DNA of 64,000 nt from the NCBI GenBank assembly GCA_033439295.1, contig JAVTLE010000014.1:2976001-3040000 (forward strand), given 5' to 3'. This document shows, piece by piece, positions 2,907 through 60,536 of the stretch. The notes under the pieces were generated by a model. That model had not been told where the DNA came from. It was given only the letters and a program-made list of their open reading frames with translations, and did not search any database. The first letter of the stretch is position 1. Every line of letters begins with the position of its first letter. The position numbers and the translations under genes were made by a program. Source of the DNA: Deuterostichococcus epilithicus (taxonomy: Eukaryota > Chlorophyta > Trebouxiophyceae > Prasiolales > Stichococcaceae).

Positions 2907-5900
2907 TCAGAAGATGTCCAAGACGACCTGCAGAAACACGCACATTTGTGTTTGTCGACAAACACGAAATTGGACTTCCTTGAGCCAACAGGGCGCGGCT
3001 CTCGGTCTGAATCTAGAGGCATTGCAGACGGGCATGGACGCTGCACTCCCGCAATAATTGAAACGGTAACGACCCTCGAGCAGCCGGCCCACCTGCTGGA
3101 TGTCCTGGCGGCACATGGGGCAGGTCTTGGGCGCATTTGGCTGCTGGTACAGGCTGGCGCACGACCTGCAGCTCAGCAGAAGAACGTGCACATCAGCACA
3201 GGTGGAGAACCTGGAGGGGCGAGGGGGGCGGGGGGAGGGGCTCAAAGATAGCATGTGTCGCGATTTAGTGCAGGGCCCCAGACTGACCGAACCACTGCAA
3301 CAGGTCGGCCTTGCGCTCCGGGCGAATCTCAGGACTGCTGCAGGCGGGCGGCGACTCACTTGCAGGCACACTTGTGGACGCTGGAGCCGTGCAAAAAGCC
3401 GCAGGTCGCCTCGAACTCCTGGCAGATGACGCACAGGCTGTCCTCCGCAATGGCCTTGCCGCCTGCAGACAAAACACACCTGAAAACGTTAGCTCAGGCG
3501 AGACTGATCATTTTCAGAGCGCTGCAGCGTGCAGCGACATAATGGCCACAGTACCGCTGCCAGTGGGTCAGGCCTGCTGCTGGCTGGTCGCTCTGTCCCA
3601 TTGCAGGTATGTGCAAGCTGAACGGCAGCACATGTGCAGCCATGGTGCTGCCAATCGGGCACCGTCAGGAAGCGCACCTGAGGGCAGCGGCTCGTGCAGC
3701 GGCGCAGTCATTGGCGGCGCCGTTGGCTGGGCGTTCTTGTCCAGTTCAGGGTATAGCCCTGGGTCTGGCACCTGCAGGTGGCCGAGCAGAGCTGGTCAAC
3801 TGGGTCAGCGAAATAGAAGGGTCTGGGTAGTCTGGCAGAACGACACGAGAGGTTGAGGTGCCGCGCGGCAGCGGCAGCAGTGAATGTTCAACACACCTCC
3901 GGCCGGCCGTGCTGGGGCGCTGCCTGCTGCGAGCCAACTGAGGCGGCGCCGGCAGAGGCGCCGCGCGCATCCTCCTCAGCCTGCAGCAGCCAACAAGCAG
4001 CTCATTCAGCTGTGCTCACCAGGCAACGAACCCCACTGGTTGCTGTCCAAACCACGAAGACGAACTTTGGTCTGGCCTAGAGAACAACCCGCGTCCAACT
4101 CGTCACGGTGTCAGCACTCGGAGCCAGTTGCGGGTCTGCTTGTGGGTGTGACCAAAGCAGGTAAGACCGCCGCAGGCTCACCTGCAGCCTGCGGGCGAGG
4201 GCCTCGTCCTCAGCGAGGCTGGGCGTGCGGCCATGCGACACCGGCTGCGGCTGCGGCGCCTCGGGCAGCCTGGGTCCGGGCGCCAGACCGGAGGACGCCG
4301 GAGGCTGCGCCGCAAAGCGGCCCGCAGCCGGCGGCGGCCNCNGCGTCGGCGGCTGCGAGCTCGGGATGAGGCCTGCCGCGCCGCGCAGCGCCGCGGCGGC
4401 CTCGGCCGAGCTGTCAGAGCCGCGCAGGAACAGCGAGTGGCGGCCATTAGTGTCTGTCACCACAAATGCGTCCGACGGCCGCTCGTGGTTCCTGCGCCCA
4501 GAGCAGTCGCCTTCGAAACAGTGCGCACCGCGTGATGAAGCAGGGGCAGCTGCGCACCACACACAAGCCAACAGCGGTGGGCTGTCACAGGACACCAGGA
4601 GGGGGGCCAGCAACCATGGCAGTGCCGCCACCCACCGCTGCAGCGTGAGGGTGAGCTCGGGCTCGGAGTCGCGCTGTTCCAGCGCCGCCTCTGCGCCGTT
4701 CAGCCACACCTGCAGGACCGCACCACGATCCTCCGTCAAGGTGGCCGACGCGGTGCCAGCTGGAGACTTGAGTGACGCATCACAAGAGTGGCACCACAGA
4801 TTGTCTCTTCGAGGCTCGAGAACAATACAGCTCGTAATTGGATTGGTGGCCGGAAGCACCTTCCCAAGGACCGTGAAGTCCGTGGGGGAGCGGAACCACG
4901 TCAGCAGCATGTACGTCGCCGCGTCGTCGGGGTGCATGCGGCGGTTGTGCCGCCGCGGCGTGATCAGGCAGTACCGCCTTTCCCATATCCGCCGGAACCC
5001 GGCAAACCTGACCACCTGCGGCCCATCAGGTTGGGCTTGTTCGCTGAAGTGCACATGAGGTCTTGCTGCAATTCGCCGACTATCACTGATGTCCAAACGG
5101 TTGCCACAGGGCTGGCAGCATAACAAAGCACTAGCACAACAGAAGAACTTTTGGTGAAACAGAAGCATTTCCATGCAGCAGCACCTTCATGTTCAGCCAG
5201 CCGGAAAAGTGGGCTCGCTGCTCGATCATGCGCACGATGCTGATGCTGTTGGCCACCGGTTCCAGCTTCAGCGCAAAGTCCAGCGTCGTGTAGCCTGCCG
5301 GGGGCAGGAACGGTCGTGTGGTTGAGTCACGAGCCCCAGCAGAAGCGGCGACAGCACAGGCTGCGTGGCGCAGCCCAGTCGCAATGCAGATGGTTTTAGT
5401 GCCAGTTGGGGTCTGCACGGCCATGATGCTTTTGGGCAGGGTCAGTCCCTGCAAATTGCGACAGCTGACGGCTCGCTTGCTGGCAGCTGCCACAAACAGC
5501 CAGAGCGCCCTCACCCTTGCAGTCCTCGACGAAGGGGTCGGCCCCCGCCTGCAGCAGCATCTGCACAGGCGTGACGTGCGCGTTCTGGGCGGCCAGGTGC
5601 AGCGCGGTGCGCCCCCAGCGGTCCGCGTGGCCCACCACTGCGCCCGCGCCCAGCAGCAGGTGCACACACTCGGCATAACCTGCGGCGGCTGCGACCATGA
5701 GCGACGTCCACCTGTTGGCATGGGAACACGCTGGTCTCAGAACGCGTGGCACACTGGTTGGCAACCCGTGGAGGCAGAGACGCATTTACTCAAGGATGGT
5801 GCCTGCAGGGCAGGCTCCAAAATTTGTAGTAGAATGGTTGAACGAGTTACCCTGTGATTACGTCCTCGTATTCTAGCCATTGTGCTGCGCTTTGTGGTCC

Positions 5901-6134
5901 GTGCCCCTGCTGTGGCAGGCGTGCAAGCAGGTCCTGCGCGCCAGAAGCCCAACAGTGTCATGGATTCTATGACTGACGCCAGAAACATCGGCATCGAGAG
6001 TGCATGCCGCATCTTGAACCGAAAACGATGCCAGAAGGGGCGCGCTGCCGCACCCGCAGCTTGGCGACATCGTTGGCCTTTGCAGCCTCAAAAAGCGACC
6101 TGCACGGCAGGGCAGAGCGGCCTTGCAGCTTCAT
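2907..6134 (-). CDS. Ankyrin-repeat RING E3 ubiquitin ligase, XBAT34/35-like
   Basis: The likely job is transferring ubiquitin from an E2 to substrates held by ankyrin repeats. The N-terminus (MKLQG, 6134) leads into SLFEAAKANDVAKL. The ankyrin exons at about 5510-5735 contain TSLMVAAAAGYAECVHLLLG and TALHLAAQNAHVTPVQMLL. An exon near 5190-5300 has GYTTLDFALKLE and FSGWLNMKVLL, the post-ankyrin block of XBAT35 (FSGWMREFYG). A PH-like segment follows at about 4840-5030 (RRIWERRYCLITPRR). Near 4150-4230 SLAEDEALARRLQ resembles a ubiquitin-interacting motif. The RING is split over two exons: CVICQEF at about 3430 and CRSCASLYQQ plus CPMCRQDIQQVGRL at about 3080-3190, the same placement at the C-terminus as in XBAT35. 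Two undetermined bases (4340, 4342) fall in a Pro/Ala-rich linker. The domain order makes the assignment firm. The C-terminal tail after the RING is open to 2907 but may be shorter. Confidence 0.8.
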
Positions 6135-7063: not shown

Positions 7064-10000
7064 ATGGTCCACGATCCTTCGCAGGGTGACCTGCCGCCGG
7101 AGCCGGCAGCGGAGGAGACGGTGCAGCTTGCGGCGGTGCGGCAGGAGCTGCGGCAGGCGCGCTTCTCCTCATGTGTTGCTAGTGTGCTCCACTGATATTG
7201 TCATCATATTTGCCCGCCTCACGGGCATGCTGCGCGCTGGAGTGCCATGGTGCGCACCCGTGTCGCAGGCGGCTCAGGAGCTGCAGGAGCGCGGCCTAGC
7301 ACACAGCGCCTGCTGGGCCGCGGAGCAGCTCGCCGGGCTGCGCGACGACGGTGACTACGACTCGCCTGCCGCCAGCCCGCCGCGGGCCACTGCCGCGCCT
7401 GCAGAGCCCGACAGCCTGCTGCTGGCCAAGGCGTATTTTGATGCAAAGGTGTGACCCGCCTCGCCGCCGCTGTTTGCTGATAGGAATCGTATCCACCTGC
7501 GTTGGCATTGCCTCGACACGGAGTGAAACAAGATAGGTTGATACGGTGTCGCAACATTGGTGGCCTGCAGGAGTACCGCCGAGCGGCACACGCGCTGAGG
7601 GACGTCGACGGCAGCCGGGCAGTGTTTCTGCGGTGCTACTCGCTGTATCTAGCAGGAGAGAAGCGCAAAGAGTGAGCGGCTGTTGCTGAAACCCATCCTG
7701 TCTCGGTATGCTGATATGCACGGTCGCGTGGTGGTGGGTGCAGCGCCAGAGCCAGAACGAATTTTCATTTGGTCTGCCGACAACTCTCATGGTCACGCGG
7801 CAGGGAGGAACGCATAGAGAAGGCGGGTCCGCTGGGGAACGCGGATGCGCAGAACAAGGAGCTTGACGGCGTCGAGCAGCAGCTGCGGGCTGCCGCCAAG
7901 CGCAGTGCCGCTGACGGCCTGTGCACGTACCTCCTGGGCCTTGTGTACGCCGAAGGGTGGGTTCTGGGGCGCACTGGAACGGCCTCCTCCTACGCTGCTA
8001 CATCGTCTTTGCGGCCCAGTGTGATGCAAGAGGGGCGATCCTTGAGGCTGGTGTCTCACTGCATGCAGGGCCCAAAAGCAGAATGCGGTGACGGCTCTGT
8101 CAGAGTCGTTGCACGCCTTTCCCTGCAACTGGGCCGCCTGGCAGGTACGCGCCAGGACACTGCTCCACAAACCCCTCAGTCTCTGCCTGCGTCTATGATT
8201 GCTTGGACCTTTTCCTGCCCTGCCGCATTGATTGGCGGAGTGGAAACATGTACACCAGATGAGACCTTGTTCAAGCAGGCGCTGCAGCACCTGCTGGCGG
8301 ACCAGGAGAGCCTGGCGGACATACCGCTGCCGCGGCACTGGATGCGCAACTTCTTTCTGGTGGCGCATTGCCTGGAGACGCAGCACAACCAGGAGGCCCT
8401 CAGCCGCTTGGAGGTGTGCGCACGTGTTGCGAGCACCCGACATACGCAAGGCTGCTCTCCTGACAGGCGGCCTGTGATTGGCTGGTACACCTGTCAGGGG
8501 TGCAGCTTGGCAGAGCAGACGCAAATCGTGTGGCCGCCTCCGCTGGGCTGTTGGAGCGGGCGCAGCTGTGCCTGTACTTGCGAGCTGTACCTTTGGGACT
8601 TCAGGTGGGCAAAGTATTCATGAAATCATCTGTATCGACAGGAGCTGGCGGAGCTGTTCCCCAACAGCGACTGGGTGCTGGGCCAGGCGGCGGTGGCGCA
8701 GTACAACATCCGCAACTTCGACATGGCACAGTCCCTGTTCGAGGACCTGCGCCTGCGCGACCCCTACCGCACAGAGGCGCGCTTCCAAGGGCGGGCTGCA
8801 GGCCCAAATGCAACAGCATCTGCCTGTTGACTGTGGCCCCACAGCAGCCATGCTTGCTGGCGGTGGGGATGAGGTCACTGCCTGAGTCAATCTCCAGCCA
8901 ACAATTGTGCGCAAAACGAACACCTCAATACACCCACAATCCTCACCCCCAAAATCAAACAGACTGCGGCCTGGTGGCATGCAGGGCATGGACATCTACA
9001 GCAACATCCTCTACGTGAAGGAGGACTTTGCGGGGCTGAGCAACATGGCGCACACCGCCATCGAGACGGACAAGTACCGGCCTGAGTCCGTCTGCATCGT
9101 CGGCAACTACTACTCCATGAAGGGCCAGCACGAAAAGGTTCGAGCGGGCAGCGTTTCCACCGGCTTCTGGCCGCAGGTCTGCGCTCTCTGGCTGCTGTCG
9201 CATGCGGGCACTTTCCTCGCAGGCCTGTCCATGACTCTGCTGCCTGGGCTCTCTGCCCTTCCTTGAACCTCCACGCAACGCTCACTGCAGTCCAAAAGCT
9301 GGCACCCGGAGGACAACTCGGCACGGTGAGCAGTATGGTTTTGCAGGCGGTCATGTACTTCCGGCGGGCACTGAAGCTGGACCGGAACTACCTGTCCGCT
9401 TGGACGCTGATGGGCCACGAGTACGTGGAGATGAAGAACACGCCGGCCGCCATCGGTGAGTCACGTTTGCCTTGCACAAATTCGTTTCATCGTGCTGGCT
9501 GTTCATCGGTCAGCAAATGGAGCTGCAGAGTTTCGGCCGCTCATGCCGAGTTGCTTGCGTTGTTTTCGGAACTCAGGGCCGAGTGTAGCATGCCCACTGT
9601 CTCCTGCTGCAGAGGCGTACAGGCGTGCGGTGGACATCAGCCCTCGAGACTACCGCGCGTGGTACGGTTTGGGGCAGACCTACGAGCTGCTGCACATGCC
9701 CTACTACGCCCTGTACTACTTCCGACGGTGCGGCCCTTCCCTCCCCTTTCTAGTCCCTCCCTCCCCTTCCTGGTTCCAACTTGCGTAAACCGTGATCCGC
9801 TGAAAGATTCCTCTCTGTATCAAGCTCAAAACTGCGTGGCTCAGTACCGTGCCGCCCTATTCAGCTGGCATGCTCTCGTGTGCAGCGGCTGCATTGAATT
9901 GATGCGCTGCGCAGGGCGACACAGCTGCGGCCAGACGATGCACGGATGTGGTGCGCCATGGGGCAGTGCTACGAGCACGAGCAGCTGGGGCTGGACGATG

Positions 10001-11448
10001 CTGCCATCCGCTGCTACCGGCGTGCCCTCACCAATGGCGACCGCGAGGGCATCGCCATGCACAAGCTGGTGCACGCCTGAGACCACAGATCCGACGCCAT
10101 GCAACCAGCGTCTCTCCCCTGGCGCAAGCGCCGTGTGTGCCCATCGCAGCTGCTAGACGAGTGTGTGGTGCGCGGCGGCGCAGGGCGCTCGACCGCTGCG
10201 GGGCTGCCGCACGGCAGGCTTGACCGCCTGGCGTCCAACTCTGCCCCTTTGGAGCACAGTTGGAGCGCGCCATTGCAGAGCGCGCTGCTGCAGACAGAGC
10301 CAGCCCCCAGCCGCTCGTTGGCTCATCACGCCTGTGCGTCTGTCGCAGGCGCAGCTGCATGTGCGGCGGGGGGAGAAGGAGGAGGCGGCGCACTACTACA
10401 AGCTCAACCTGGAGGCCATCGACACCATGAACCTGTCCGGCACCGACGCCGTGGAGGCCCTGCACTTCCTGTCCGAGCACTCCCTCGTGCGCTGGCAGAG
10501 CCCCCACCACCTTGTGTCCTGGTGCCCTCATGCGTCACGGCGGTCACCCGCGTCACTGCACTCGGCGGGGCCCTGCATTCCCTGCATTCCTCACAGATGG
10601 GGGTTCCAGCTTCGGCCAGAGGTGCCAGCCTCGCCACGCCGTCTCACGGCGGGACAGCCCCCTGCTCGACCGGTCCTGGTGGCGCAGCGGTTCTCACTTT
10701 GTGGCTGCAGGAGACGGGCAACGTGGCGGAGGCGGAGGCGCATGCCCTCAGGCTGCTGGACTATGGCCCCGCCGCCAAGGAGCGGGCAAAGGCCCTGCTG
10801 CGTGAGGTGCGGCACGCCCTGCGTACGAGCACATGCTCATCCATGAATGGCACATGCTCAGCGATGGACGGCACATGCTCACTGACGGCGTGCTTGCAGC
10901 AAACGTTGTTCTGCTGGTGTGGCGTCCTTGTTCGTTTGCTGGGTAGCGCGCTCGCTGCTGCGCACGGTTGAGCGCGCTGCCTCCTTGCAAACTGGACACA
11001 ATGGTGGGTCACACATGGGAGCTGTGCGTCTGCAGGTGCACGCGGCACAGCAGCGCGCCGCCACCGAGGTTAGTCACCGCGCCGTTGCATGTGCCGCTGG
11101 TCTGCAAGTTCCAGCTGTCCACACTTGCGAGGTGCATTGCTGATATCGATGATGTGCATTGTGACATGCATTGCTGATACTTGCGAGGTGCGTCGCTGCG
11201 GACTGTCCTGATGCAGCGAGGTGTGACAGATCACACCCTGAGTGGGGATGGTTGTCCGCCCGCCACAGGTCCAGGGCGGCGAAGGACGCGTCGGCGGCTC
11301 GCGCACGCCAATCGCCTTTCGGGAGTTTGCCGTCACGCCCGGTGGCCCTGGCGGTGGCAGTGGCACGGGTGTGGGAGACCCTGACGCCGATGGCTCTGGG
11401 TCAGACATCGACGCGGATTCCGGCGGCTGGTCTAGCGGAAGCATGTGA
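7064..11448 (+). CDS. APC8: Anaphase-promoting complex subunit 8 (CDC23)
   Basis: APC8/CDC23 is a TPR scaffold subunit of the APC/C, the ubiquitin ligase that destroys cyclins and securin in the nucleus. The N-terminal exons read [14 protein letters not shown] (7064) and AAEQLAGL with [10 protein letters not shown] (7270-7448). The family hallmark [16 protein letters not shown] follows at 7621-7672. TPR exons include [20 protein letters not shown] (about 8350), [20 protein letters not shown] (8670), [14 protein letters not shown] (8990), [19 protein letters not shown] (9083), [20 protein letters not shown] (9359), [20 protein letters not shown] (9616) and REGIAMHKL (10046). Later exons carry [15 protein letters not shown] (10380) and [20 protein letters not shown] (10735), as in plant APC8. 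The final exon (about 11273-11448) is Gly/Asp/Ser-rich and ends SSGSM. Nearly every conserved segment has a match, so identity is secure. The last two exons are less certain. Confidence 0.93.
10829..10881 (+). repeat. Three tandem copies of a roughly 21-base unit
   Basis: The word GCACATGCTCA occurs three times, near 10829, 10850 and 10871, spaced by about 21 bases with related filler. It lies just after the last well-conserved APC8 TPR exon and is probably intronic. A looser repeat of the words GCGAGGTGC and GCATTGCTGAT follows at about 11127-11200. Confidence 0.6.
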
Positions 11449-12269
11449 CCTGGATGTGACGCCGTGCAGTTTGCACAGATCTCGGGGGCAAGGATGCGGA
11501 ATAGGGAGTGTGCGTGGAAGGGGGGTGTGACCCACCCTTAGTTGAAAATATGACGGCACGTGCAGCCCGTTGGATATTCGATATTCTTTGCTGCTTCGTG
11601 CACAGCATCCGCGCCGGACCCTTTGGTCCGGTGAAGCAGTACGATTCCATAGCTGTCCCGTGTCCAGCGAGCTGGTGTTGCAGACGTCAGTGGCTGCGAA
11701 ACCTTCCGTTATTCGCTTCCGGCAGCTTGCAACGAGGTGCAGTGCAGTCTGACGGCGTTTTCAACAGTGTCCTGACGCACAAGTTCCAAAACGGTCAAAT
11801 AAAGGATTGTTTGGAGCGGCTGAGCAGGCAACGCACACTCGTGAAGACAATCCTGTGTGTGCAGCGGATTCGGATCCCACTCGGCACCACGGTCGTGCGA
11901 ACCTGATCATTTCTTGTGCCAGATCAGAATTATTACACAAAAATCAGCAGAGCATCCAACTCTGCAACCAGCAGCGGTCCCGGGTGTCGCCTCTGTCAGG
12001 ACCTCCTCCATTGTGGTGGGCGGTCGGCCGGATGTGCAAGCTGGTCAAGATGCCTCTGTTAGCATGCGGTGCCATGTTAGCATGTTTGCATCTCGGCAAC
12101 GAAGTAGTTGCAGCATACTTGCAGGCCTGCGCTGCGGATATTGCGACTGAGTCTTCACATCTGCACGCCGCAGGGGCACGGTTGTGGGCCTTTTAGCATT
12201 GCCTTGCCACTCTCAATCGTAGCGGCAGTGCGGCGACTGTGAGCAGCGGCACGGCAACAGCAGCGGCAC
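11449..12269. other. Intergenic region between APC8 and the SPX-RING gene
   Basis: Both flanking genes point the same way. The stretch should hold the APC8 3' end and the SPX-RING promoter. Open frames such as the one at about 11508-11906 lack recognisable motifs, and no exon signal is convincing. Confidence 0.4.
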
Positions 12270-14667
12270 ATGAAGTTCGGCAAGCGGCTTGCAGCAGAAG
12301 CAGCGCGCCGATGGAGGGACCACTACTTGGATTACAAGATCGTTAAGAAGGCCATCCAGGACGATGTTGCGGCACTGGGTGGGCTGATGAAGCATGGCCC
12401 ACGTATCGCTTTCACGTTGTGTATTTGCTGCCTACACTGCCGTCTCGCGTTCGCCTCCCAGCTTTCACGCAGCAGCAGTGGCTGACGACAGTCGCAATGG
12501 TCATGCAGATGTGAACGGCGAGAACTTTGAGGCGGCCATCACTGCAGAGCTGCGCAAGATCAGCACCTTCTACGTCGACAAGGAGGAGGAGCTCGATGTG
12601 AGTTTGCAGCTGTTTGTAAAGAGGTCTCGAGGCGATTTCATCGAGCGAGACTCTTCAGTGCGCTGCCCAGAATCACGTCGTGGAGGGGCGAGGGGCCTGT
12701 CTGGCAACTGGATGCGAGTCTGACAGGACAGCTGGGCGCCTGAATCGCAGGCCCTGCTGCGCTCGCTGAAGGCCAACCCGTCGGAGTTCATGGGCAGCTT
12801 CCGAATGGAGGTGGCAGACCTGCGCAAGTTCGCAGTGCTCAACTACATCGCGGTCATCAAGTGCGCCTATATTGACCGCCTATTTGCCCGCCTCTTCGCC
12901 GCCATGGCTCGGCCCCACCCCAACACTGGCCGTACCATCACTTTCGTGCTTGCTGCTGACTTGCTTGCGCTGTGCCTCCGGTCCTCATGGCAGAAAGGAG
13001 GGCCTCAGGAGCCAGTCGTGGGAGGTACAGCTGCAGGGAGGCGGCAGCCGCGTGTCCTGCGCCAACAGAATCCGTGTTTGTTACTGCAGGTCGGTGAAGA
13101 AGCGGAATAGGCACCTGGCAACAGCATGCGCCCCCCAGGCCGTGGCGCCGATGCGCGCCGTGGAGCTGCTCAGCCACCAGTACTTCTTCACCTCCCCCAA
13201 GCTGGCCGCCCTGGCCACTGAGGCCGAGATCCTGCAGAAGGTAGACACCCCACCATCGCACCCCTCCGCCAGCCGACACCTGATGCAAAGCTTATTGTCC
13301 ATGCCAAATCTGCAGGTGCTGAAGCAGGCGGTCCCAGCCCTCGGTCCCTCGATGCAGCAGCACGAACTCGCTGGTTTGCATTATCAGGCCCTAGCTGCTA
13401 TGCCGTGCCAGCATGAAAGCGGTGTTGCCCTGTGGCCGCAGCATCAGGCGGAGCAGGTGGTGCCGGGGCCTGGCTGTCGAGACATGCCGACACCTGCACC
13501 TGACTCCTCTGGCTCATTTTCTGCTGCCGCAGAAGCAGGCGGAGGAGGGGCTGCCGGGGCTGTCGTCGCTGGACGAGTACCAGTGCCCCATCTGCTACGA
13601 GGTGCTGCACAACCCGGTGGTTCTCACCTGCGCGCACCGCTTCTGCTGGGGCTGCCTGGTGGCGCACTGCGCCACCTCCGCCGCCTCCGGCCGCGCCAAC
13701 GGGCACAGGCATGCGCCTGCGCCCTCCCCTGGTGAGCAACCGGCCGAAGAATCCTGCTGCTAGACATGCTTTGCAGAGCTGACTCTTGTGTGCGTGCTGT
13801 GTCGGCTTGCGCAAGTCTGACCAGCAGCAAGGAGGAGCACTGGAGTCTGCCCGCTACACCCTCGCATCAGGTTGTGGCACGAGCTGTGGTGCGCTGCTGC
13901 AGAGGATGGCGGCAAGGACACGAAGCTACAGTATGCAGCAGAGGTGGTGGCCAGCGAGCCAGGCGACAGCGGGGTGGCCACCTACGACTGCCCCGTGTGC
14001 CGCCGCGCCCAGATCCTGGACCTGGACCGCCTGCAGGTGGCCCCCGACTGCTTTGCGCCGTGAATAACATTTCACATAACATTTCACTCATGAGCCTGCG
14101 TAGATCTTCAGATCCGTCTCTCTCATGTGTCTTAGGCTCTACTGCAATTCCCACTGGGCATCAGTGCTCTCACCCGAGCTTTACCAAGGTCAGGAAGGTT
14201 GGGCGAAACACTGAAGGCCAAGTAAGCTCGGCATGTGTTAATGCGTTGCATATTTGACATTCCTGCAGGTGGACCCGCACCTGACGCGCTTCATTGCGGA
14301 GCTGAAATTGCGTGACGCCGGCAGCGGCGAGGCGATGGACATCTCGCCGCCGGAAGCGGAGGAGCCGGCGCCGCTGCCGCCGCCAACGCAGCCAGACGCC
14401 GCGCAGCGCCAGGCGTCCATGAGCATCGCCGAGCCTGAGCCGCAGGCGCGCCTGCATCTGAGTACAAAGCTCTTTAGCATGTTCTGTGGCGCACTGCTGC
14501 ACTGACATCACCGCTTCACTCTGCAGGCGCAGGCGTCGACGGCGTCGTCGCAGCTGAGCCAGCCAGCGGGCGCGCCGCCGCTGCCTTTGCAGAGACTGGT
14601 GTTCCCGAAGGGCGTTCTGCACAACGAGCTGCCGTCGCCAATGCCCTCGCCGCGTGACGGTGTGTGA
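12270..14667 (+). CDS. SPX-domain RING-type E3 ubiquitin ligase (BAH1/NLA-like architecture)
   Basis: SPX domains sense inositol pyrophosphates and so cellular phosphate; plant NLA/BAH1 joins SPX to RING and marks phosphate transporters for destruction. The SPX domain begins at the start codon, [15 protein letters not shown], then [10 protein letters not shown]. It continues at about 12500-12600 ([20 protein letters not shown]) and 12750-12870 ([15 protein letters not shown]). That last exon splices in phase to [10 protein letters not shown] at about 13090, rebuilding the Lys-rich SPX helix. [20 protein letters not shown] follows. The RING is at 13575-13680 ([20 protein letters not shown], then [11 protein letters not shown]) with its last Cys pair at about 13987 ([17 protein letters not shown]). 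The C-terminal exons (14270-14667) are Pro/Ala/Ser-rich with no known motif and end SPRDGV. A phosphate-signalling role is inferred from architecture alone. Confidence 0.87.
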
Positions 14668-15231
14668 CCCTTGTGGTGGATCGTTGCATGCTGATTAGTC
14701 AACAGCTGTTGCTCATGCATTATGGAAGAACAGCAGGGAAGGAGGCCGGCACATTGCAGGATTGCAGCATCTGAATATGAATATCTTCGTATCTACATCG
14801 CCTCATGCGGCAAAGGCACGGAGCCCCATGCTTGCAAAGACATCGAGCCCGTGTTCTCCCTGCTGCCCAGGCCGGGACGTGGCAGTCGCGGGCAAGGAGC
14901 TGGACGAGGCGCCGCCACTGCTGCCGCCACAGCGCCCAGAGCACCAGGTGGACACGTTGCTGATATGCAGCCAAGGGCCTTTGCTGATCATGTGCACGTG
15001 AGACGGGGCTGGCGACCGCGCCGCTGCGCACCTCCCTTCGCACTTACCGCAGCCTTCCCAGTCAGCAGCTGAGGCTTGCCAGCACCCGGCCAGGCCCGCT
15101 GGCTGCAGCAGATCTGCCTGATTGCTCTGGAGGATGGATGCCTAAAAACCCTGCCGCCGCCGCTGCAGGGCCGGCAGCAGCAGAGTGTGCTGCAGCCACT
15201 TCATACTGATGCCTACAAAACCACTGCCACT
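14668..15231. other. Gap between SPX-RING gene and the HAD fusion gene
   Basis: No conserved motif was found. An open frame at about 14762-15001 could be an exon of either neighbour, but I found no matching splice phase. The frame is open from 15073 into the HAD start at 15232, so an upstream exon or an earlier start for that gene is possible. Confidence 0.35.
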
Positions 15232-18200
15232 ATGCTACAGGGCCGCCTCACGGTGGTGCTGGACCTGGACGGCACGCTGGTGAGCAGCTACACGCCGGCG
15301 CGTGCGCCCTGCCTGCCGGCGGGCATGCAGTCCTACATCGTCGGTCGCGGCGCCCGCATCAACCCCAAGGGCGTCTTCGTCGTGGAGCGCCCCGGGCTGC
15401 GGGAGTTCTTTGCCAAGCTGAACGAGTTTGCGGGTGCGTGCATTGACGGGGAAGCATCCAGCTTTCCAGCCGAGCAACTTCGGCCCAGCTTCTAGCAGCG
15501 TCTCACTGTGTCACCCCGCCTTCGCATTCCAACGCGCAAGCCTAATTTCAGGTCCATGTTGGTTCTCCCAGACTGCTGCCCGATCTCGCCTGTGCACTTC
15601 GCCCCGTTCCGGCAGTAGTCTTCGTGGCACCTGCCTGCAGCACTTGGAAGCTGTATAACTTCATCTTTGCATTAACATCTGGACAAGGTGAAGTGGTGCG
15701 TCATAGCTATGCCGCGGCGCAATGCCAACAACCTTTTGGCACTGGTCCAGCACAGTGCGGGGTGATGGCACCCCGTGCATTTACCTGACATTACGGCTCA
15801 CTGTTTTGCAAGCTCTCCTGAGAGGTGATCCTGTGCATGGCTCCTGACGTCTTATTGCGCACCGCTCGCCGCAGAGGTGATCCTGTTCACAGCGGGCGTG
15901 GAGGATTACGCGGCGCCCATCGCCAACCAGCTGCACTCGGAGTATGACTGCTTTGCGGGCCGCCTGTACCGCCCCGCCACCGTCGCCTGCCCCCTGTGCG
16001 TCCTCCTTCTTGCGATCCTGCCTCCGAGAGGATGCATCTTGTGCATCCCAAGACCAGGAATGGTGTCTGGTCGCCATGCCGCTCAACCTCCAACGAGCAG
16101 ACGTGGCAGCCACAGCTCATCCGTCCAACTGAATTTCATCAAGTTGCTCAGCATGTGGACCACAGATGACGCTGTCACCGCCGCGGCGCAGGTACCCGTG
16201 CATCAAGGACCTGTCGAGGCTGGGGCGGGACCTGGCGCGCACGGTGCTGGTGGACGACACCCCGCTCGCCTTCTGCCGCCAGCCCGACAATGGCATCCCC
16301 GTCTTCAATTTCCGGTGTGCACGCCGCCGCGTACTCTGGCTGCTGTGCCAAGTGATGCCCCTCATCCTCAAACACCTGCAGCAATTGGACGAGCAGCGAT
16401 GCACGTGGCAGAGTAGTTGGACCTGTTTTGATTCTCCTCATACCCAGATGCTTAGTGTACGCCATTAGTGTATGGCGTGCGATGATTGCGTTGAATTGGA
16501 GCGAAAAGAGGTGAAAGTGGGTCAGACACCCAGTCCACCAGCACATGCTACTATTGCTGCCGCAGGGGCGACAGCGACGACCGGCTGCTTGGGGAGGCGG
16601 TGCTGCCGCTGCTGCAGAGCCTGGCGGAGGTGCCCGACGTGCGGCCCAAGCTGCACTCGCGCTTCAACATGCCGCACTGGTTCAAGGCGCAGGGCGTGTC
16701 TCTTGCCGACACGCGCACCCCAGTGGCCGTGCCCTCCTCCCTGGGTGCGCCAGCCTTCCCAGCCTGCATGTGGATCCTGAGATTCAGGCTTGGATGACGT
16801 CGAGCTTGACGCCGCAGGCAGCTCCCCACTCTACTGACGCCGTCACTCCCCACAGATCGCCTGAGCGGCCAGCACGCCTGCCCTGACGCATGCTGACGCC
16901 GTGCTCCCACAGGTCGCAAGGCGGTGTCGAGGCCGGCAAAGCGCCCAGTGGCGCAGCCATACGCGCGTGCGCCAACACCGGCACCCGCAGCCACGCAGAA
17001 CGGCTTGCACCCCCGTTGCCTGCTGCTCACCGACTTCGACAAGACGCTGACCGACTGCGATGCCGGTGCGAGGATGGTCAACACCTTACAGATTACTCGG
17101 GCTGGAGCGTCTACTGCTCCGGTCTGCATCCTACGCTCGTCCGGTCCAGCTTCTTATTCCGTGGACCTGTTTGTCCCGTGGAGCCGTCAATGCACTGCGC
17201 CATTGGGTCAAACCGTGTGCCGCTGCTCCCCACGCAGGCGAGCGGCTGGTGGGGGAGCTGGCGCCAGAGTTGGCGCCGATGTTGGCGGCGCTGGAGATGC
17301 CCGCTAACTTCGTGCCGACCACCAACGCTGTGCTGGCCGAGATGCAGGTGCGGCGCCTTGTCACTCCTTTGGAATCTTCCCCCAAGCTGACAACAGCCTC
17401 CTGGGTAACATTTGAGGGAGCTAGCAGGTCTCATTGGTGTCCCTGCCACCCGCAAGGCTCCCCCTGTGCTGCAGTGTCGGTTCAGAATATCCCGCCCAGC
17501 GACCTGAAGTCTCACGACCTGAAGTTCGAACACTGCTGTCGCAATCCTGGTGCAGCGGCGGGGCATCAGCCGGGACACCATCCTGGCAGAGCTGCGGCGC
17601 ATGGGCACCGAAATCCCCTCCTCCAGCATCGAGATGCTGCAGGTGTGACGCGTGCCTTCAAGGCAACACGCCGCCGCCACTGCAAATTCATACGAATGTC
17701 TTACAAACCGTCTGGTCAAGGATCCCCTAGTTGTATACCTAATCGGTTAATTTAGTGCCTGCTGCTCTGACGCAAGTCAGCGGGCCGCACCGCAGTGCAC
17801 AAAAAGATGCTGACGAGCTGTGCCTGGCTGCGGGCGCGCAGTGGGCGGCAAAGAACCGCATCGACGTGCGCATCATCTCGGACTGCAACACGGTGTTCAT
17901 CAGCCACATGCTGGCGGCAGCACGCGTCAGCTCCGCGGTGTCGCAGGTCATCACCAACTTCGCCAGCTACCGCCGCGTTCTTCCCGCCCAGGTGCGTCAC
18001 GATGCATTTCGCCAGGGAACACTCGGCCCAGCATGGTCGTGTGAACAAATAAGAGGCACCACGGCCAAGCGCGTGTGACCTCAAAGCTCCTTGCGCAGTC
18101 ATGTACCATCAGGATGGGCTGCGGCAGCCGGCCGGCACTCGATGCTCCCTATCTCGTGCAGTCCCGGCGGACCTGCTGACCAGTTGTAAACTGAACTCGG

Positions 18201-19037
18201 CTCGCAGGAGGGGGACGACCCGGCGGCGATGCTGCAGCCGGTGGGCGCCCAGGAGTCGGCCAGCCACCGCCTGGTGGTGGACCCGCGTGTCCCGCCCACC
18301 TCCCCACACGGCTGCCCCCTCTGCCCCGCCAACCTGTGCAAGGTGCGCCGCGGCCCGCGCCGCCCAGGGCAGTCGCCACGGCCCTACCGGATTTCCAACG
18401 GGGATGTCTTGTGCCACATGCTTTCTGAAAGCTGACCGGCTCCGCATGCGGGCCGCATGGCGGATGTCTCGTTGCACATCAGCCGCCATGCGGTCAAGTT
18501 GCATACAGCCAGATCCTCACACTTCCAGGTGCTCACACTCATTCCCTGATATCTCACCACAGGGTCGGGAGCTGCAGGCGCTGCGGCAGGGCGCTGTCTT
18601 TGCGACGGTGGTGTACTGCGGCGATGGCGCCAACGATCTGTGCCCCGCGCTGGCGCTGGGCCCGGAGGACCACGTCTGCGCGCGCGCCGGCTACGCGCTG
18701 CACAAGCTCATCGAGCGGCGTGCCGGCGGCAAGGAGGGCCCTCGCGTCGAGGCTCAGGTGCGGGCGTGCACGGCGGTATTGGCACTGAGGGATCAGGCAC
18801 GCTGTGAAGCATGGGGCCCTGTGTGCCAACTGCGACAAGTTTGGCATGCAGGGTAGGCGCTCTATCATAGGCAGCATGCACGATCCGATGTCAAGGTGCG
18901 AGGTCCATCCAGTAGGCTTCCAGTAGACCAATGTCCGGCTCAACAGCTGATGCATCTGCGCTGCGCCATTAATGCAGGTGCACATCTGGCGGGACCACGC
19001 CGAGCTGTTCCGCATCGTGGAAGGCCTACTGGGCTGA
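15232..19037 (+). CDS. Two-domain HAD phosphatase: FCP1/SCP-like domain fused to PHOSPHO1-like domain
   Basis: The N-terminal half is an FCP1/SCP-like domain. It has LTVVLDLDGTLVSSY (15247-15290), EVILFTAGVEDYAAPIANQL (about 15874) and VLVDDTPLAFCRQPDNGIPV (16244), so the nucleophile Asp and motif III are present. The C-terminal half resembles PHOSPHO1 and plant phosphocholine/phosphoethanolamine phosphatases: LLLTDFDKTLTDCDAGERLV (17023, split by an intron), RRGISRDTILAEL (17553), IDVRIISDCNTVFISHM (17862), CPLCPANLCK (18312) and VVYCGDGANDLCPALALG (18609), then AGYALHKLIERR. The last exon reads VHIWRDHAELFRIVEGLLG. The halves join cleanly: the exon ending near 16752 (AVPSSLG, phase 1) fits the exon at 16913 (RKAVSRPAKRP) across an intron of about 160 bases. 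No stop, start or promoter-like gap separates them. The physiological substrate is unknown. Confidence 0.78.
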
Positions 19038-19456
19038 TGAGAGACACAGGATGCAGATGGCGAGCTGCGGCATACTTGGCACCGGTTTGGAGGCCTGGGG
19101 TTTCATGGCCTGCCGGTTGTGACGTTGAAAGCGCTGGACTTTACATAGCTGGGCTGCTGGGTACGTCGCTCATTGACAATGCTTTAGGCAGTCGACACAG
19201 ATGTAGTGAGCGTTTGGTTGTGCCGTTTGGACGGAAATTCTACAAAACTGTGACATCTGTCTGTCCACCATCTTTGTTCGGGCCGCGTCATGTCTGATGC
19301 GAGTCAATTATGCATCACGTTGGCATGCTTTCATGGATACTCTGCGATCCCAAGAACGCTCCATGCAATCACGCACCAACGCCCACACCTCCCACAGATC
19401 TGACGCTGGTCATCCGAAGCGTGAACAGCGGCGCTCACAACGAATTACCAGCGGTG
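19038..19456. other. Convergent 3' gap
   Basis: This lies between the stop of the HAD fusion gene (+) and the stop of the PUB-domain gene (-). No coding signal was found. A reverse-strand TGTAA at 19140-19144 lies about 310 bases after the PUB gene stop and may be its poly(A) signal. Confidence 0.35.
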
Positions 19457-21132
19457 CTATATGTACACAAACTTGTCCTTGCGCTCCTCGTTGTCGGCCT
19501 TCAGCTGTTGCTTCAGGATCTCACGATCTTTGTCCAGAGCCTTCTTCTGCAATTTCAAGTATTGCCAGAGTTCTGCAGGACGTCAACCGTGCACTGCAGC
19601 ACCTTCGGGTGAGGTTGCAACACGAGGGAATTCAGCATTGGGTCTTGGCAACCATGACCAAGTCGACCCTTCAGGGCGTCTGTCATGGCAGCGACTAGTT
19701 ATTGATGCTGCGGAGGCCGAGTGATGGCACCTTTAGGGTCGCAGACGACGCAGCGGCAGCGACGCGGCGGTCCTTCTCCTCCACCTCGCCCGCTGCCTGC
19801 CAGATCACGACATCTAATCTCAGCTTTTCCACATAGCGCAAGGTCCAAAAGTCGCAAGAATGTCGTGCTTTTGACACACCTCGGACAACCCAAAATAAGA
19901 TGCAGTGCGACTTCTGCAGCGCGACAAGGGCCGCGCACCTTCTGCAGCTCTCTCAGCGCTATCTCCAGGATGCTGCGGCACAAAATTGAAGGGTTTGGAC
20001 GCTGTGGCAGGGCCGCAACACGTGCTTAGACTCCTCGCGCAGCGGCGATGCATCGCTGCAGCAAGGTCTCTGCCCGCTGACAAGCCCGGCGCCCAAAGAT
20101 CTGGCTCGCAGCTCGCAACCCACTGAAGCACTCACCTCCACTGGGTGGTGCCCGGCTCATGCTCAAAGCACCAGGACGCCACAAAGTCGGTCGTCTGCAT
20201 CGAGAAAGATGCGTCGTCAGCATCCGAGGGCCGCCGATCCTCCAGAGGGACGGCAGAAACCTCCAAAACACCTCATCGCATCTGCACGGGCACTTCAACC
20301 GATGTCCCACCCGCTTGCGCCAGCCGGCTGCCCGCAGGAAGTCTTCCGCTCCGTGGACAGTCGCCACCCTCTTCGAGAAAACATTCGAAGCAGCCTTCAC
20401 CTGCATGATCCACATGTGTGTGGTCACTTGCAACGGCCACTGAAGTGCAGTCTGGCGGCTTCAGGGTCGCGACAATCATCCTGGGGAATCAGGGCTGCGC
20501 CAGGGTCATGTCCAGGCAGCCGCAGCCTCTGTGCGGAGCGGGTCGCCCCGCCGCTGGGCGCTCACCGACCGCTTCTTGTCGTCTCCAGGGTCCGACACCA
20601 CGTTCCCGATGATCAGCAACAGCGTGTGCACGCACGCGGAGGCCTGCGCCGGAGTGTTCCGGTCGTAGTCCTGCAGGCGCATACGGGTTGAGACATTCTT
20701 CATGGAAGCCCTGCAGCTGTCAAATCCTTGCTAGCATCGTGCAACCGGATCATGCTTTGTGATTCTGGTGATGTCCAGCCGGAGCATGTCATGCGCAAGC
20801 CTGCTCGCACCATGATGGCGCTGACAAGCGCCTTGACCAGCTTGTCGCGCGCCTCCGCCATATGCCTCTGCTCTGCGAGCTTTGCCGGCGTAGGCAAGCC
20901 GCCCTGTGGTGTGCAGAAAGGAGTTTACTTTTAAACACGCCATGCGTTGTCGAATCAATGAGACTGCCGGCTGTTTGCAGTTGCAACATGCTTCCGCCAT
21001 CTGCGGTGTCGACCGCGGTGTCACCTGCCGCTGCTGTGCCGCAAAGCGTGCAAGGGCAGCATTCGCAGCCGACGCCCTTTGCTCTGCCTCTGAAGGCCCG
21101 GGCACAGCAGGCGTCTCTTCTGAGGGCTCCAT
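19457..21132 (-). CDS. PUB-domain protein, probable p97/CDC48 cofactor (PUX2/UBXN6-like)
   Basis: PUB (PUG) domains bind the tail of the AAA ATPase p97/CDC48. One exon (about 20560-20670) reads ASACVHTLLLIIGNVVSDPG then DDKKRS. It joins in phase 0 to an exon at about 20325-20390 reading VKAASNVFSKRVATVHGAED then FLRAAGWRKR. Together these give the PUB pattern seen in UBXN6 (TLCKYLDNI, EEEKYRKIKMQN, FFEAIGF). Upstream exons are helical and charged: MEPSEETPAVPGPSEAEQRA (from 21132) and KLAEQRHMAEARDKLVKALV (about 20850). Downstream exons read PSDADDASFSMQTTDFVASW (about 20200), ILEIALRELQK (about 19970), and a last coiled-coil exon LKLQKKALDKDREILKQQLK ending KFVYI (19457). I saw no UBX fold. 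The start is uncertain because the frame is open upstream of 21132 (TPQASKRPRRAQQ). Confidence 0.6.
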
Positions 21133-30100: not shown

Positions 30101-33100
30101 GAATGCTGAAACCGTCCAGTGCACAGCACGGGCGGCTCGCATGTCGAGACCTCACCCTCATCCGCGTCGCCAGCAGACTCTGGTGCGCATCCCGCCTGCA
30201 GGACATCAATTCTGCAGGTCTGGCATACTAGAATGAACCATTGTACCGGGCTCGCTTCGTCAAGGTCGGTGGCCCCAACAGAGGAGCGGCGCATGCCAGC
30301 TGCCCATTTGAACGAATGATGCAACCCTTCGCCACATGCATTGGCGCACCATGTCGTGTCGGTGATGAGCACACCCTTGTGTTCGCGCACGGCCCTGGCG
30401 AAGCCCTCAGGGCCCTGCGCCTTGAGCACGTCCCGCCAGCCGCTGGGCGGCTTCGAGTCCGGCGCAGCCGGCGCGCCGGGCACGATGTGGCTGGGCGGCG
30501 GGCCCACTGCCCCCGCATGGTCCGGCCCATTCACTACCTGTCAGGACAGCACACCGTCTCGTGGCGCACATCGCCGCCTGCCAGGACGACAGCACCACGC
30601 GCCTCGATGTCACACTGCACCCCTGCTCTGTCTCCGGCCCTGATCGCATCGCCGGAGCGGCGTGCAGACAGCGCTCCTGGCTCGTGCCTGTTTCTGCACT
30701 TCCGGTGCGCCTCGTGAGATCAGTTGTTCCAGAGGGCACATGCGCGCTGTGCAGGCATAGGATCAGTGCGAACCAGCTCAGCGAGGTACTGCAGCAGCTT
30801 GCTGGAGTCGGGGATGGCCTTGCCGCCACTGGCCGCGCCGGTGATGAGGTGTGGGTTGCGCTCGATGAAGCTGGTGGTCGCGGTGCCGGACAGGAACTCT
30901 GGGCTCGCAACGAATTCCAGTCAAGAGTCGTTTGGTGCAGCAGGGTGCAGCTACTCGCCTCAACCATGCGATGCAGGATGTGGCGGAAGAGCTTGAAAGG
31001 TACTGCCATTTCACGGTGGCAAACACCCGGCCCACCTGGGTGCCGCAACACGTTCTCCAGGAAGACAATATCTGCATTTGACAACGATCGAGGTCAGACA
31101 CGCCAAGCTCGGCAAATAAATGACTCGCACGGTGGCATTGCGGGCATGAGCTATGCTGCATGAACTCTTGAAGCGTTGAGAACCTACTGGTCTTCACTCC
31201 TCGTATGTGGAACTCATCTGCGCAAAGAACAGCAGCGCTTCAGACGCATTTGGCAGGATGAAGCCTGTCGTTTTTTCTATTTGAGCAAGTGTTGCAGTGC
31301 CTGTGTGCGATCACTTTCCAACTCACACAGAGCCCGCTGCATCTTCTGCACCGCCTGGAGGTAGGTCTTGCCGTGGCAGATAACCTGCAGTTGGCAAGTC
31401 ACATAAGCCTGCTCCATGAATGAGCACGAGCAACAAAACGTTTTGGAGCCACGGTACGGAGACAGACTGATGCGGGGTGAACATGTGCTGTGTTAGCAGC
31501 ACGAACAGGAACAGCTGCCTTGCAGCCGCCTCGCCGCCGGCAACTCGCGCAGCGGGCGCGGCGCAGGATCGGCGACACCCTGAACACACCCTGGCGGACA
31601 GTCACCTTGACGAGCAGCGAGTCGTAGTAACGCGATACGGTGTTGCCGGCGCCCAGGGCGCCATCCAGGCGGATGCCGGGGCCGCCCGGCGAGCGGTACG
31701 CCTGGATGCGCCCCGTGTCCGGCTGGAAGTTGGTGGCAGGGTCCTCGCAGGTGATGCGGCACTGCAGCGCGTAGCCTGCAACAAGCGAGAATTAGCTTAC
31801 TCAAGTGGGCGGCGCGCACGTACCTGTGCCAATAAAACAATGATGAAGATTTGCGAGTGCTACAGTGACTAGCTCTGTTATCGAAAAGTGAACGTGACGT
31901 CACTCTGCCTGATTGATAATAAACATCGCTCATGAAACGATCATGAATGACCCACCGAGTGGCTGGCCCACTGCCTCCTGGCTGCCCAGGCCGATGGACT
32001 CCAGCGTCGCGCCGCCAGCGATCTTGATTTGCGACTGCACGATGTCGATGCCCGTCACCTCCTCCGTCACCGTGTGTTCCACCTGAGGGCGGCCGGGGAA
32101 GCGGTGGCTGAATACTGCCGGAAACTAGGGTTGCAGAGGTTGGGGGCGGCGCCCGGAGCCAGTTTTCCATCACTGCTCCGGCACTTGCTGTGCGGATCGC
32201 GGATGCACCAGCAGCAAGCAGGACAGCAACCCTTAGAGATGCGTGGTTGCGGCAGTGCAGCCGTGATGGAGGATGCGCTGCAGTTGACAGCTGCAGCAGC
32301 GGCACCTGGACTCGCGGGTTGACCTCCAAGAAGAAGTATGCGCCCGAAGGTTCCACCATGAACTCCACTGTGCCGGCGTTGCGGTACCTGTGGGGCAATT
32401 TGGCACCCAATCGCATTGCAACGTACATTTGCTAGCAAGCACGACGAGTGCCCACAAAACGTGCCGTTGTGAGGTCGGCAGCCGCACCCAACGTGCTTGG
32501 CGATCTTGACCGCATCGGCGTGCAGCGCATCCCGGACTTTCTGGTCCAGGCCGAATGCTGGCGCCAGCTCGATCACCTGCGCGGCAAATGTGCGCATCTG
32601 CAGTGGCCAAATGTACTGTATTGCTGTGTGCCATCAGGGAATGGACTCTCTGACTCTCGCGCCTCTTGGTGGCATGAACAACAACACACAGACGTCAGCA
32701 TCCACAAGCACGCTGTGCTTGGCAAGGACGCTGCGGCGTTACCTTCTGGTGGCGGCGCTGCACGCTGCAGTCACGCTCGTGCAGGTGCACCACGTTGCCA
32801 TGCGTGTCGGCCAGGATTTGGACCTACGGCGGAGGTGAGCACAGCCGGACACGTGCTTTGCGATATCAGCCGACCATTGGACGACCATTGGACGCTGTCA
32901 TCAGCGCCACGGCCATCCAGTCACAGGGTGCAGCATGCGCCTCACATTGTGTGGGACGGTGTCCAGCAAGCTCATGCAGCCTGGCAGCGTACCTCCACAT
33001 GCCGTGGGTCCTGCACAAAGCGCTCTGCGAACATGGAGCCGTCCCTGCAGCCAGCACGAGCACCTGACTGCATTTGGAGCACCCAATCGCACGGTCCAGA

Positions 33101-60492: not shown

Positions 60493-60536
<44 letters not shown>

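Follow-up and report, generated by a model that had tools for sequence, protein, structure and literature searches.

A probable SPX-RING gene carrying two HAD phosphatase domains in the green alga Deuterostichococcus epilithicus

Two different HAD phosphatase domains, one NIF/SCP-like and one PHOSPHO1-like, lie in tandem on the plus strand of a 64,000-nucleotide stretch of Deuterostichococcus epilithicus DNA (contig JAVTLE010000014.1, positions 2,976,001 to 3,040,000; hereafter the window, numbered from its first letter). A preliminary description took them for one gene that begins at 15232 and encodes just the two phosphatases. The locus thus raises two questions, namely whether the domains belong to one protein and where that protein begins. 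Our analysis suggests that they are very probably parts of a single gene, and that this gene also encodes, with good but lesser probability, an SPX domain and a RING finger upstream. On balance, we interpret the gene at 12270-19037 as coding for a SPX-RING ligase of phosphate homeostasis that is akin to NLA and Pqr1, is about 900 amino acids long and carries two HAD phosphatases in addition.

Four domains in one predicted gene

On the plus strand, the predicted coding sequence opens with an ATG at 12270, passes through 20 exons in one frame and closes with a stop at 19037. The hand-built model has 910 amino acids, and its numbering is used below; the splice choices of a later parse give a version of 900 amino acids and 97.9 kDa. 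Introns range from 81 to 441 bases. The predicted domain order is SPX, RING, NIF/SCP-like phosphatase and PHOSPHO1-like phosphatase, the two HAD domains forming the 3' part, and all four exceed a Pfam cut-off in one spliced protein in the profile search (Table 1). The DNA itself shows the domains with their motifs for catalysis and zinc binding, as well as the reading frames and splice signals, and the two HAD domains occur in the order and orientation described earlier, with the motifs quoted then. The gene, by contrast with that description, probably does not begin at 15232: coding appears to continue upstream from exon 9 to exon 1, so that the protein would start 3 kb earlier, with SPX and RING.

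Table 1. Predicted features of the locus (window positions) and one related locus elsewhere in the genome
Feature	Coordinates	Exons or parts	Strand	Basis
Whole predicted gene	12270..19037	20 exons, 900-910 amino acids	+	Viterbi parse and hand model
SPX domain	12270..13240	exons 1-4: 12270-12378, 12509-12597, 12727-12860, 13090-13240	+	Pfam and phmmer
RING finger C3HC4	13533..14036	exons 5-6: 13533-13731, 13903-14036	+	two RING models over cut-off
Pro/Ala-rich linker	14269..14947	exons 7-9: 14269-14445, 14527 or 14533-14659, 14871-14947	+	codon scores; exact limits uncertain
NIF / SCP-Dullard-like HAD phosphatase	15241..16744	exons 10-13: 15241-15433, 15875-15995, 16192-16314, 16566-16744	+	Pfam and phmmer
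Phase-1 intron joining NIF and PHOSPHO1 parts	16745..16912	168 bases	+	best in-frame GT/AG pair
PHOSPHO1-like (Put_Phosphatase) HAD domain	16913..19037	exons 14-20: 16913-17065, 17238-17347, 17556-17642, 17842-17991 (17818 in hand model), 18208-18342, 18563-18757, 18978-19037; stop 19035-19037	+	Pfam
L024	G000:C12:3961000-3969500	SPX about 3390, RING about 5531		SPX and sub-cut-off RING

The first HAD domain matches the whole Pfam NIF profile (positions 1-160 of 160; 125.6 bits, cut-off 21.8). Its motifs are DLDGT at 409, which fits the DxDx(T/V) pattern, FTAG at 470, CIKDL at 509 and VDDTP at 526. NCBIfam HIF-SF_euk scores 128.6 bits, under its curated cut-off of 139.15, and the nearest solved structures in phmmer searches are SCP2 (2q5e, E 8.1e-24) and SCP1 (E 1.6e-23). 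By sequence, the domain, earlier labelled "FCP1/SCP-like", is nearer to the Dullard/SCP group than to FCP1, FCP1_euk reaching 28 bits against a cut-off of 135.25.

The second HAD domain matches Put_Phosphatase (cut-off 27) over positions 2-230 of 234 and contains DFDKT at 647, ISDCN at 743, CPLCPANLCKG at 817 and GDGANDLCP at 846. We take the last two to be signatures of PHOSPHO1, PECP1 and PS2, and the catalytic roles of the PHOSPHO1-like motifs are assumed likewise. The score is 114.8 bits in the hand model and 122 bits in the parse version, in which the acceptor of exon 17 at 17817 was replaced by the better-scoring 17841, together with another change made by the parse. The NCBIfam MtnX-like model gives 74.9 bits, under its cut-off of 81.55, and the domain as a PDB query returns a single match (E 0.72).

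The residues encoded from the ATG at 12270 onward are typical of the beginning of an SPX domain. At the N-terminus, where SPX-RING ligases carry it, the spliced protein has a Pfam SPX match of 35.0 bits (cut-off 27.8), while the open frame of exon 3 searched alone matched no Pfam family. Solved SPX domains matched by phmmer are 7e40 (E 3.5e-6, the best), 7d3y, 8i6v, 7ytj and 8tyu, several of which span the rest of the domain; they include SPX1, SPX2, VTC3 and XPR1/SLC53A1 domains, with E values from 3.5e-6 to 1.2e-4. The matched SPX1 and SPX2 structures are presumably of plant proteins. In Vtc4, the YxxxKxxxK motif at residues 22-30 is an inositol-pyrophosphate site (PMC8749416; papers cited by PMC number are represented here by excerpts, to which statements about them apply). 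As far as this motif goes, Y22 and K26 are kept in the predicted protein. Behind the SPX domain follows a C3HC4 RING finger, for which two models exceed their cut-offs (zf-RING_UBOX 32.2 bits, cut-off 25.2; zf-C3HC4 25.1 bits, cut-off 21) and the other four listed RING models stay below theirs. All eight ligands are present (C179, C182, C194, H196, C199, C202, C257 and C260).

One gene or several

Training of the codon model and the splice model drew on domain exons of the same gene (12 or fewer introns); the parse itself uses no homology. It was run by the Viterbi method on a small generalized hidden Markov model (HMM) in nine settings, that is, three training sets by three length priors. A single-setting parse held out introns 4, 6, 7, 8, 9, 13 and 16 and exons 3, 7, 8, 9, 13, 14, 17 and 20. 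In the leave-one-out codon test, in the single-setting parse and in one of the three training sets, the background trimers came from all 19 introns; therefore, negative intron scores are partly built in.

In the leave-one-out test, all 20 exons were positive in the predicted frame (the lowest being exon 1, +0.03) and all 40 off-frames were negative, as were the intron frames (57 of 57, partly by construction). Exons 7, 8, 9, 13 and 14, which lay outside training, scored +0.31 to +0.60 bits per codon when read in the frame of the model. The single-setting parse returned one gene from 12270 to 19037, and forcing a gene break between SPX and RING cost 23.7 bits in the HMM (one setting). Seven of the nine settings freely gave one gene. 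Structures were printed for one setting per training set, and the gene at 12270-19037 is found in two of these three.

The junction of the two phosphatases is better supported than that of RING and NIF. Among 18 in-frame GT/AG pairs around it, the pair 16745/16912, neither site of which was in training, scores 18.2 bits and the runner-up 9.8; its sites rank in the best 2.0% of 3361 GT and the best 0.5% of 4258 AG on the plus strand of the window. The earlier placement of this junction was right in the exon start at 16913 and in the phase fit, and needs correction in the exon end (16744 rather than about 16752) and in the intron length (168 rather than about 160 bases). No in-frame ATG precedes DFDKTL within the exon at 16913. 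Five ATGs occur at 16566-17060, and when direct reading or one GT-AG intron is considered, only 16669 (within the NIF exon), 16794 and 16890 reach the PHOSPHO1 frame, each via a single intron; the best separate PHOSPHO1 start, 16890, costs 33.5 bits in the parse. Imposing a break between NIF and PHOSPHO1 loses 14.5-35.5 bits in all nine settings, and a gene ending at NIF (16797) was rejected on this ground. Since the first PHOSPHO1 exon lacks its own ATG and the split is costly throughout, a true fusion is supported, as had been proposed, rather than two neighbouring genes. Separate genes for NIF and PHOSPHO1 are very improbable. Read-through of intron 13 would indeed meet a stop just past 16794, and both families also occur apart in this genome, where NIF is matched at five further loci and Put_Phosphatase at one; however, the 168 bases between them are all the space that two genes would have, and the missing ATG and the cost of the break also count against it.

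The junction between RING and NIF is where the upstream extension has to be weighed. Read in the predicted frame, the linker exons 7, 8 and 9 (outside training) score +0.43, +0.31 and +0.60 bits per codon, and their other frames are negative. Exon 9, which lies upstream of the alternative start at 15232, ends in LLPPQRPEHQ and splices onto GRLTVVLDLDGT; at the matching place SCP2 has LLPEVTEEDQGRICVVIDLDET. It supplies LLP...Q before GRL as in SCP enzymes, and LLPPQRPEHQ likely represents the first residues of the NIF domain. Scored at this fixed place with BLOSUM62, the last 10 residues of exon 9 give 19 against SCP2 and 15 against SCP1, values reached by 13 and by 107, respectively, of the 102759 stop-free six-frame 10-mers of the window; the unspliced residues around 15232 give -6 and -9. 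The two scores count as one observation because SCP1 and SCP2 are close relatives, and the match was noticed before it was scored. Exon 9 also raises the whole-domain PDB scores, and this was dropped as support for the junction: 11 of 13 sequences gain 3.8-5.5 bits, TIM50 chains among them. Two TIM50 chains gain 3.8 bits although their alignments begin only at query residue 56-57, which shows that the gain is not due specifically to exon 9.

Several observations weigh against a single SPX-RING gene with two phosphatases. Some of them fit two adjacent genes, a SPX-RING (NLA-like) ligase at 12270-14667 and a NIF-PHOSPHO1 double phosphatase from 15232 or 14828 to 19037. If intron 8 remained unspliced, exon 8 would run into a stop at 14665-14667, a neat end for a separate SPX-RING gene. 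The ATG at 15232 lies 564 bases farther on, which would leave enough room between two genes, and the NIF frame can be read from this ATG or from one at 14828. Imposing a break between RING and NIF costs just 3.0-7.6 bits in six of the nine settings and 0-0.2 bits in the three trained on three NIF exons, two of which freely give two genes. The third printed structure, which comes from that training set, is divided between RING and NIF, begins at 12074 and joins NIF to PHOSPHO1 through a different acceptor, 16990. At introns 8 and 9 the site model favours different acceptors. Acceptor 15168 gives a pair of 15.4 bits for exons 9-10, versus 9.2 with 15240; the top pair for exons 8-9 (11.7 bits) has acceptor 14759, and 14870 is outside the best five. 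Since every enumerated acceptor pair leaves the frame open, the linker sequence is uncertain; nevertheless, the full parse picks 14870 and 15240 in both printed one-gene settings. Intron 7 (14446-14526) requires a GC donor, CAG|GCGCGC, with an AG acceptor, the best of seven in-frame GT alternatives reaching -0.8 bits. Within the domains, the Pfam SPX match covers only profile positions 1-30 of 340, K30 of the YxxxKxxxK motif is replaced by Q, and RING ligands 6 and 7 are separated by 54 residues, more than the usual RING spacing. TGTAA is an algal poly(A) signal, and it occurs within 11000-19700 only at 12615 and 18185; because none follows the stop at 19037 either, its absence at the junctions is uninformative.

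The genome was searched with profiles exon by exon (46.8 Mb, an assembly of 21 contigs that includes the window), so that numbers of matches are lower bounds. Two adjacent genes would also agree with a second SPX locus found there (L024), where a SPX match at C12:3964389 is followed 2.1 kb downstream, at C12:3966530, by a sub-cut-off RING match (25.0 versus 25.2 bits; 21 bits in another search), and where the profile searches gave no NIF or Put_Phosphatase match. This locus may be a conventional SPX-RING (NLA-like) gene. However, exon 9 has the codon usage of coding sequence when read in the frame of the model and restores a SCP-type LLP...Q start of a quality that few 10-mers of the window attain, and with a start at 14828, which would keep exon 9, only 160 bases, the size of an intron here, would be left for a 3' end and a promoter. 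We therefore consider two adjacent genes unlikely. A bicistronic transcript, with SPX-RING and NIF-PHOSPHO1 as separate open reading frames (ORFs) and leaky scanning between them, would make use of the same stop and starts, and mRNAs that fit leaky scanning are described in Chlamydomonas and Auxenochlorella (PMC11892635). The cases excerpted there have few potential initiation codons before ORF 2, whereas ORF 1 here would have about 376 codons and seven in-frame Met codons including the start; in addition, exon 9 is better explained as a coding linker. Such a transcript is accordingly a far slimmer prospect than two genes. The single gene of 20 exons is the reading retained below.

Proposed function and known SPX proteins

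With SPX and RING upstream, the likely biology is less that of the dual-specificity or self-regulating phosphatase first raised as a possibility than that of an E3 ligase that senses phosphate and carries phosphatase modules. We infer the activity of each domain from its family, and propose the gating of the other three domains by SPX, and the clients, as a working model. In this model, the SPX domain would read inositol pyrophosphates, the reporters of cellular phosphate. The RING finger would recruit an E2, and the client bound to the protein, for example a phosphate transporter or a factor of the PHR type, would be ubiquitinated. The SCP-like domain could strip serine/threonine phosphate off the same or a neighbouring client, and the PHOSPHO1-like domain could release phosphate from phosphocholine or phosphoethanolamine, head groups shed as phospholipids are dismantled under phosphate shortage. 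If SPX gates the ligase and both phosphatases, the protein would be a hub of phosphate homeostasis. In its fullest form, a single polypeptide would close the phosphate loop, with SPX switching between importer removal (RING), phospho-reset of the client (SCP-like) and recovery of head-group phosphate (PHOSPHO1-like); this is offered tentatively, as a possibility that we would not call probable.

The gene may also be as modelled while its phosphatase domains have another chemistry or serve only as scaffold, the PHOSPHO1-like domain acting, for example, on pyrophosphate, inositol pyrophosphates or another small phosphate. The domain is distant from the other PHOSPHO1-type gene of the genome (C12:912100-913284; 24% identity over 208 columns, the fragment being joined by eye), it stays below the MtnX-like cut-off, and an Arabidopsis relative bears the name PPsPase1/PECP2 (PMC9911876). 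On the other hand, DFDKT, ISDCN, GDGANDLCP and CPLCPANLCKG are all present and Pfam assigns Put_Phosphatase at 122 bits; we regard this alternative as rather improbable.

How the predicted protein compares with known systems depends in part on background that we take as given: Pqr1 and Spx1 (SPAC6B12.07c) are presumably one gene, Gde1 has its role in phospholipid head-group breakdown, and PHOSPHO1, PECP1 and PS2 are stand-alone enzymes. In fission yeast, the SPX-RING protein Pqr1 restricts phosphate uptake through ubiquitination of phosphate transporters (PMC8294586), and plant NLA, likewise SPX-RING, limits phosphate uptake by transporter ubiquitination (PMC11528361, PMC13153306). The predicted protein resembles NLA in having an N-terminal SPX and then a RING in one protein, and Pqr1/Spx1 in being, as proposed, a SPX-RING ligase of phosphate homeostasis (PMC8294586, PMC8749416). 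However, NLA is described with SPX and a C-terminal RING (PMC13153306), and Spx1 has 470 amino acids and a C-terminal RING, with no phosphatase domain in the excerpted description (PMC8749416). The RING here does not lie near the C-terminus: a long linker and, in the predicted frame, NIF and Put_Phosphatase follow it, unless the gene splits at RING/NIF, and the RING carries a long insert. A protein with at least SPX and RING is reported in Volvox by a 2026 review (PMC13153306).

SPX is also found on enzymes, and the fission-yeast proteins Spx1 (SPX-RING) and Gde1 (SPX-glycerophosphodiesterase) are precedents (PMC8749416). Gde1, with SPX, ankyrin and glycerophosphodiesterase domains (PMC8749416), is similar in placing SPX on an enzyme of phospholipid head-group breakdown; unlike the predicted protein, it belongs to another enzyme family and is without RING and NIF. 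In a survey that reaches from algae to legumes, the partners named for SPX are VTC, EIN3, CitMHS, Na_sulph_symp, RING-BET, S6PP_C, EIN3-S6PP_C, Kelch, EXS-rve and Sugar_tr, and its excerpts hold no NIF or Put_Phosphatase fusion (PMC8717665). The nearest are SPX-RING-BET, which adds a further domain to SPX-RING, and S6PP_C-SPX, in which SPX is attached to the C-terminal portion of a sugar-phosphate phosphatase; they are from poppy and Selaginella and have other domains, and in the S6PP_C fusion the SPX is C-terminal (PMC8717665).

For the phosphatase domains, the NIF domain aligns to SCP2 through the DLDGT, FTA, KDLSRLGRDL and VDDTP stretches, and differs from SCP1/SCP2 and Dullard (CTDNEP1) in having DLDGT instead of DLDET and in lying within a multidomain protein. 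The PHOSPHO1-like domain shares the Put_Phosphatase family and the CPLCPANLCKG and GDGANDLCP motifs with PHOSPHO1, PECP1 and PS2, and differs from them as the C-terminal domain of a fusion. PECP1 and PS2 are phosphocholine/phosphoethanolamine phosphatases induced by phosphate starvation (PMC6549246).

Among the matches listed in the open-access literature, no SPX protein with NIF or PHOSPHO1 domains is described, although an annotated homologue may exist in protein databases, and no open-access paper was found that has PHOSPHO1 and "NLI interacting factor" together. A single one, on barley microRNA, mentions both SPX and "NLI interacting factor". Pattern searches of viral, bacterial and archaeal DNA collections gave no confirmed relative (6, 6 and 5; 82 and 93 pattern matches), which is uninformative for an algal gene. 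Subject to transcript proof, the locus would therefore be a novel SPX-RING variant with two phosphatases, judged by its sequence. It would be, as far as the open-access literature shows, the first SPX protein to combine a ubiquitin ligase and phosphatases under one sensor. Plants, algae and fungi have SPX proteins as central sensors of phosphate, and in the main classes known from plants the sensor is coupled to one output. If the gene reads as modelled, phosphate sensing would be physically tied to protein degradation, protein dephosphorylation and the release of lipid head-group phosphate. It would also become testable whether SPX can gate a phosphate-producing enzyme, and a role in phosphate signalling would be suggested, by association, for algal relatives of SCP phosphatases.

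Related loci and neighbouring genes

Across the genome, this gene included, SPX matches occur at at least four places (E 0.01 or better), and the cut-off is passed only at the gene of 12270-19037. NIF is matched at at least six loci and Put_Phosphatase at at least two, the fused gene included; among these matches, only the window locus has both together or near a SPX match. VTC, PPIP5K and Myb-CC (PHR/PSR1-like) domains are present over their cut-offs, suggesting that the inositol-pyrophosphate and PHR/PSR1 pathways probably operate in this alga. Light-harvesting protein gives 39 exon-level matches, as befits a photosynthetic eukaryote.

A NIF paralogue at C14:918419-919378 is 45% identical to the fused domain over 200 columns (fragments joined by eye), and its locus (G000:C14:914000-922500, about 4423-5660) also has part of the C-terminal extension of the fused NIF domain. 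The second PHOSPHO1-type gene (G000:C12:907500-916500, open frames about 4508-6043), distant from the fused domain, shows DFDWT, VSDAN, CPDNMCKGQ and YLGDG. At a further SPX locus (G000:C1:1841500-1851000; SPX about 3290), an open frame more than 3 kb downstream has a weak MFS_1 match (17.6 bits, cut-off 33.4), and the locus is possibly a SPX-MFS transporter.

Within the window, the upstream neighbour at 7715-8620 on the plus strand has an ANAPC8 match (27.0 bits, cut-off 23.8) and is probably a gene for Cdc23/APC8, a ubiquitin-ligase subunit. The convergent downstream gene, at about 19440-21130 on the minus strand, contains KRVATVHGAEDFLRAAGW, which we take to resemble a PUB domain. Farther away on the minus strand are a CPSase_L_D2 match at 31493-32428 (24.9 bits, cut-off 19.8) and a Glyco_hydro_125 match at 59973-60965 (44.2 bits, cut-off 23.4).

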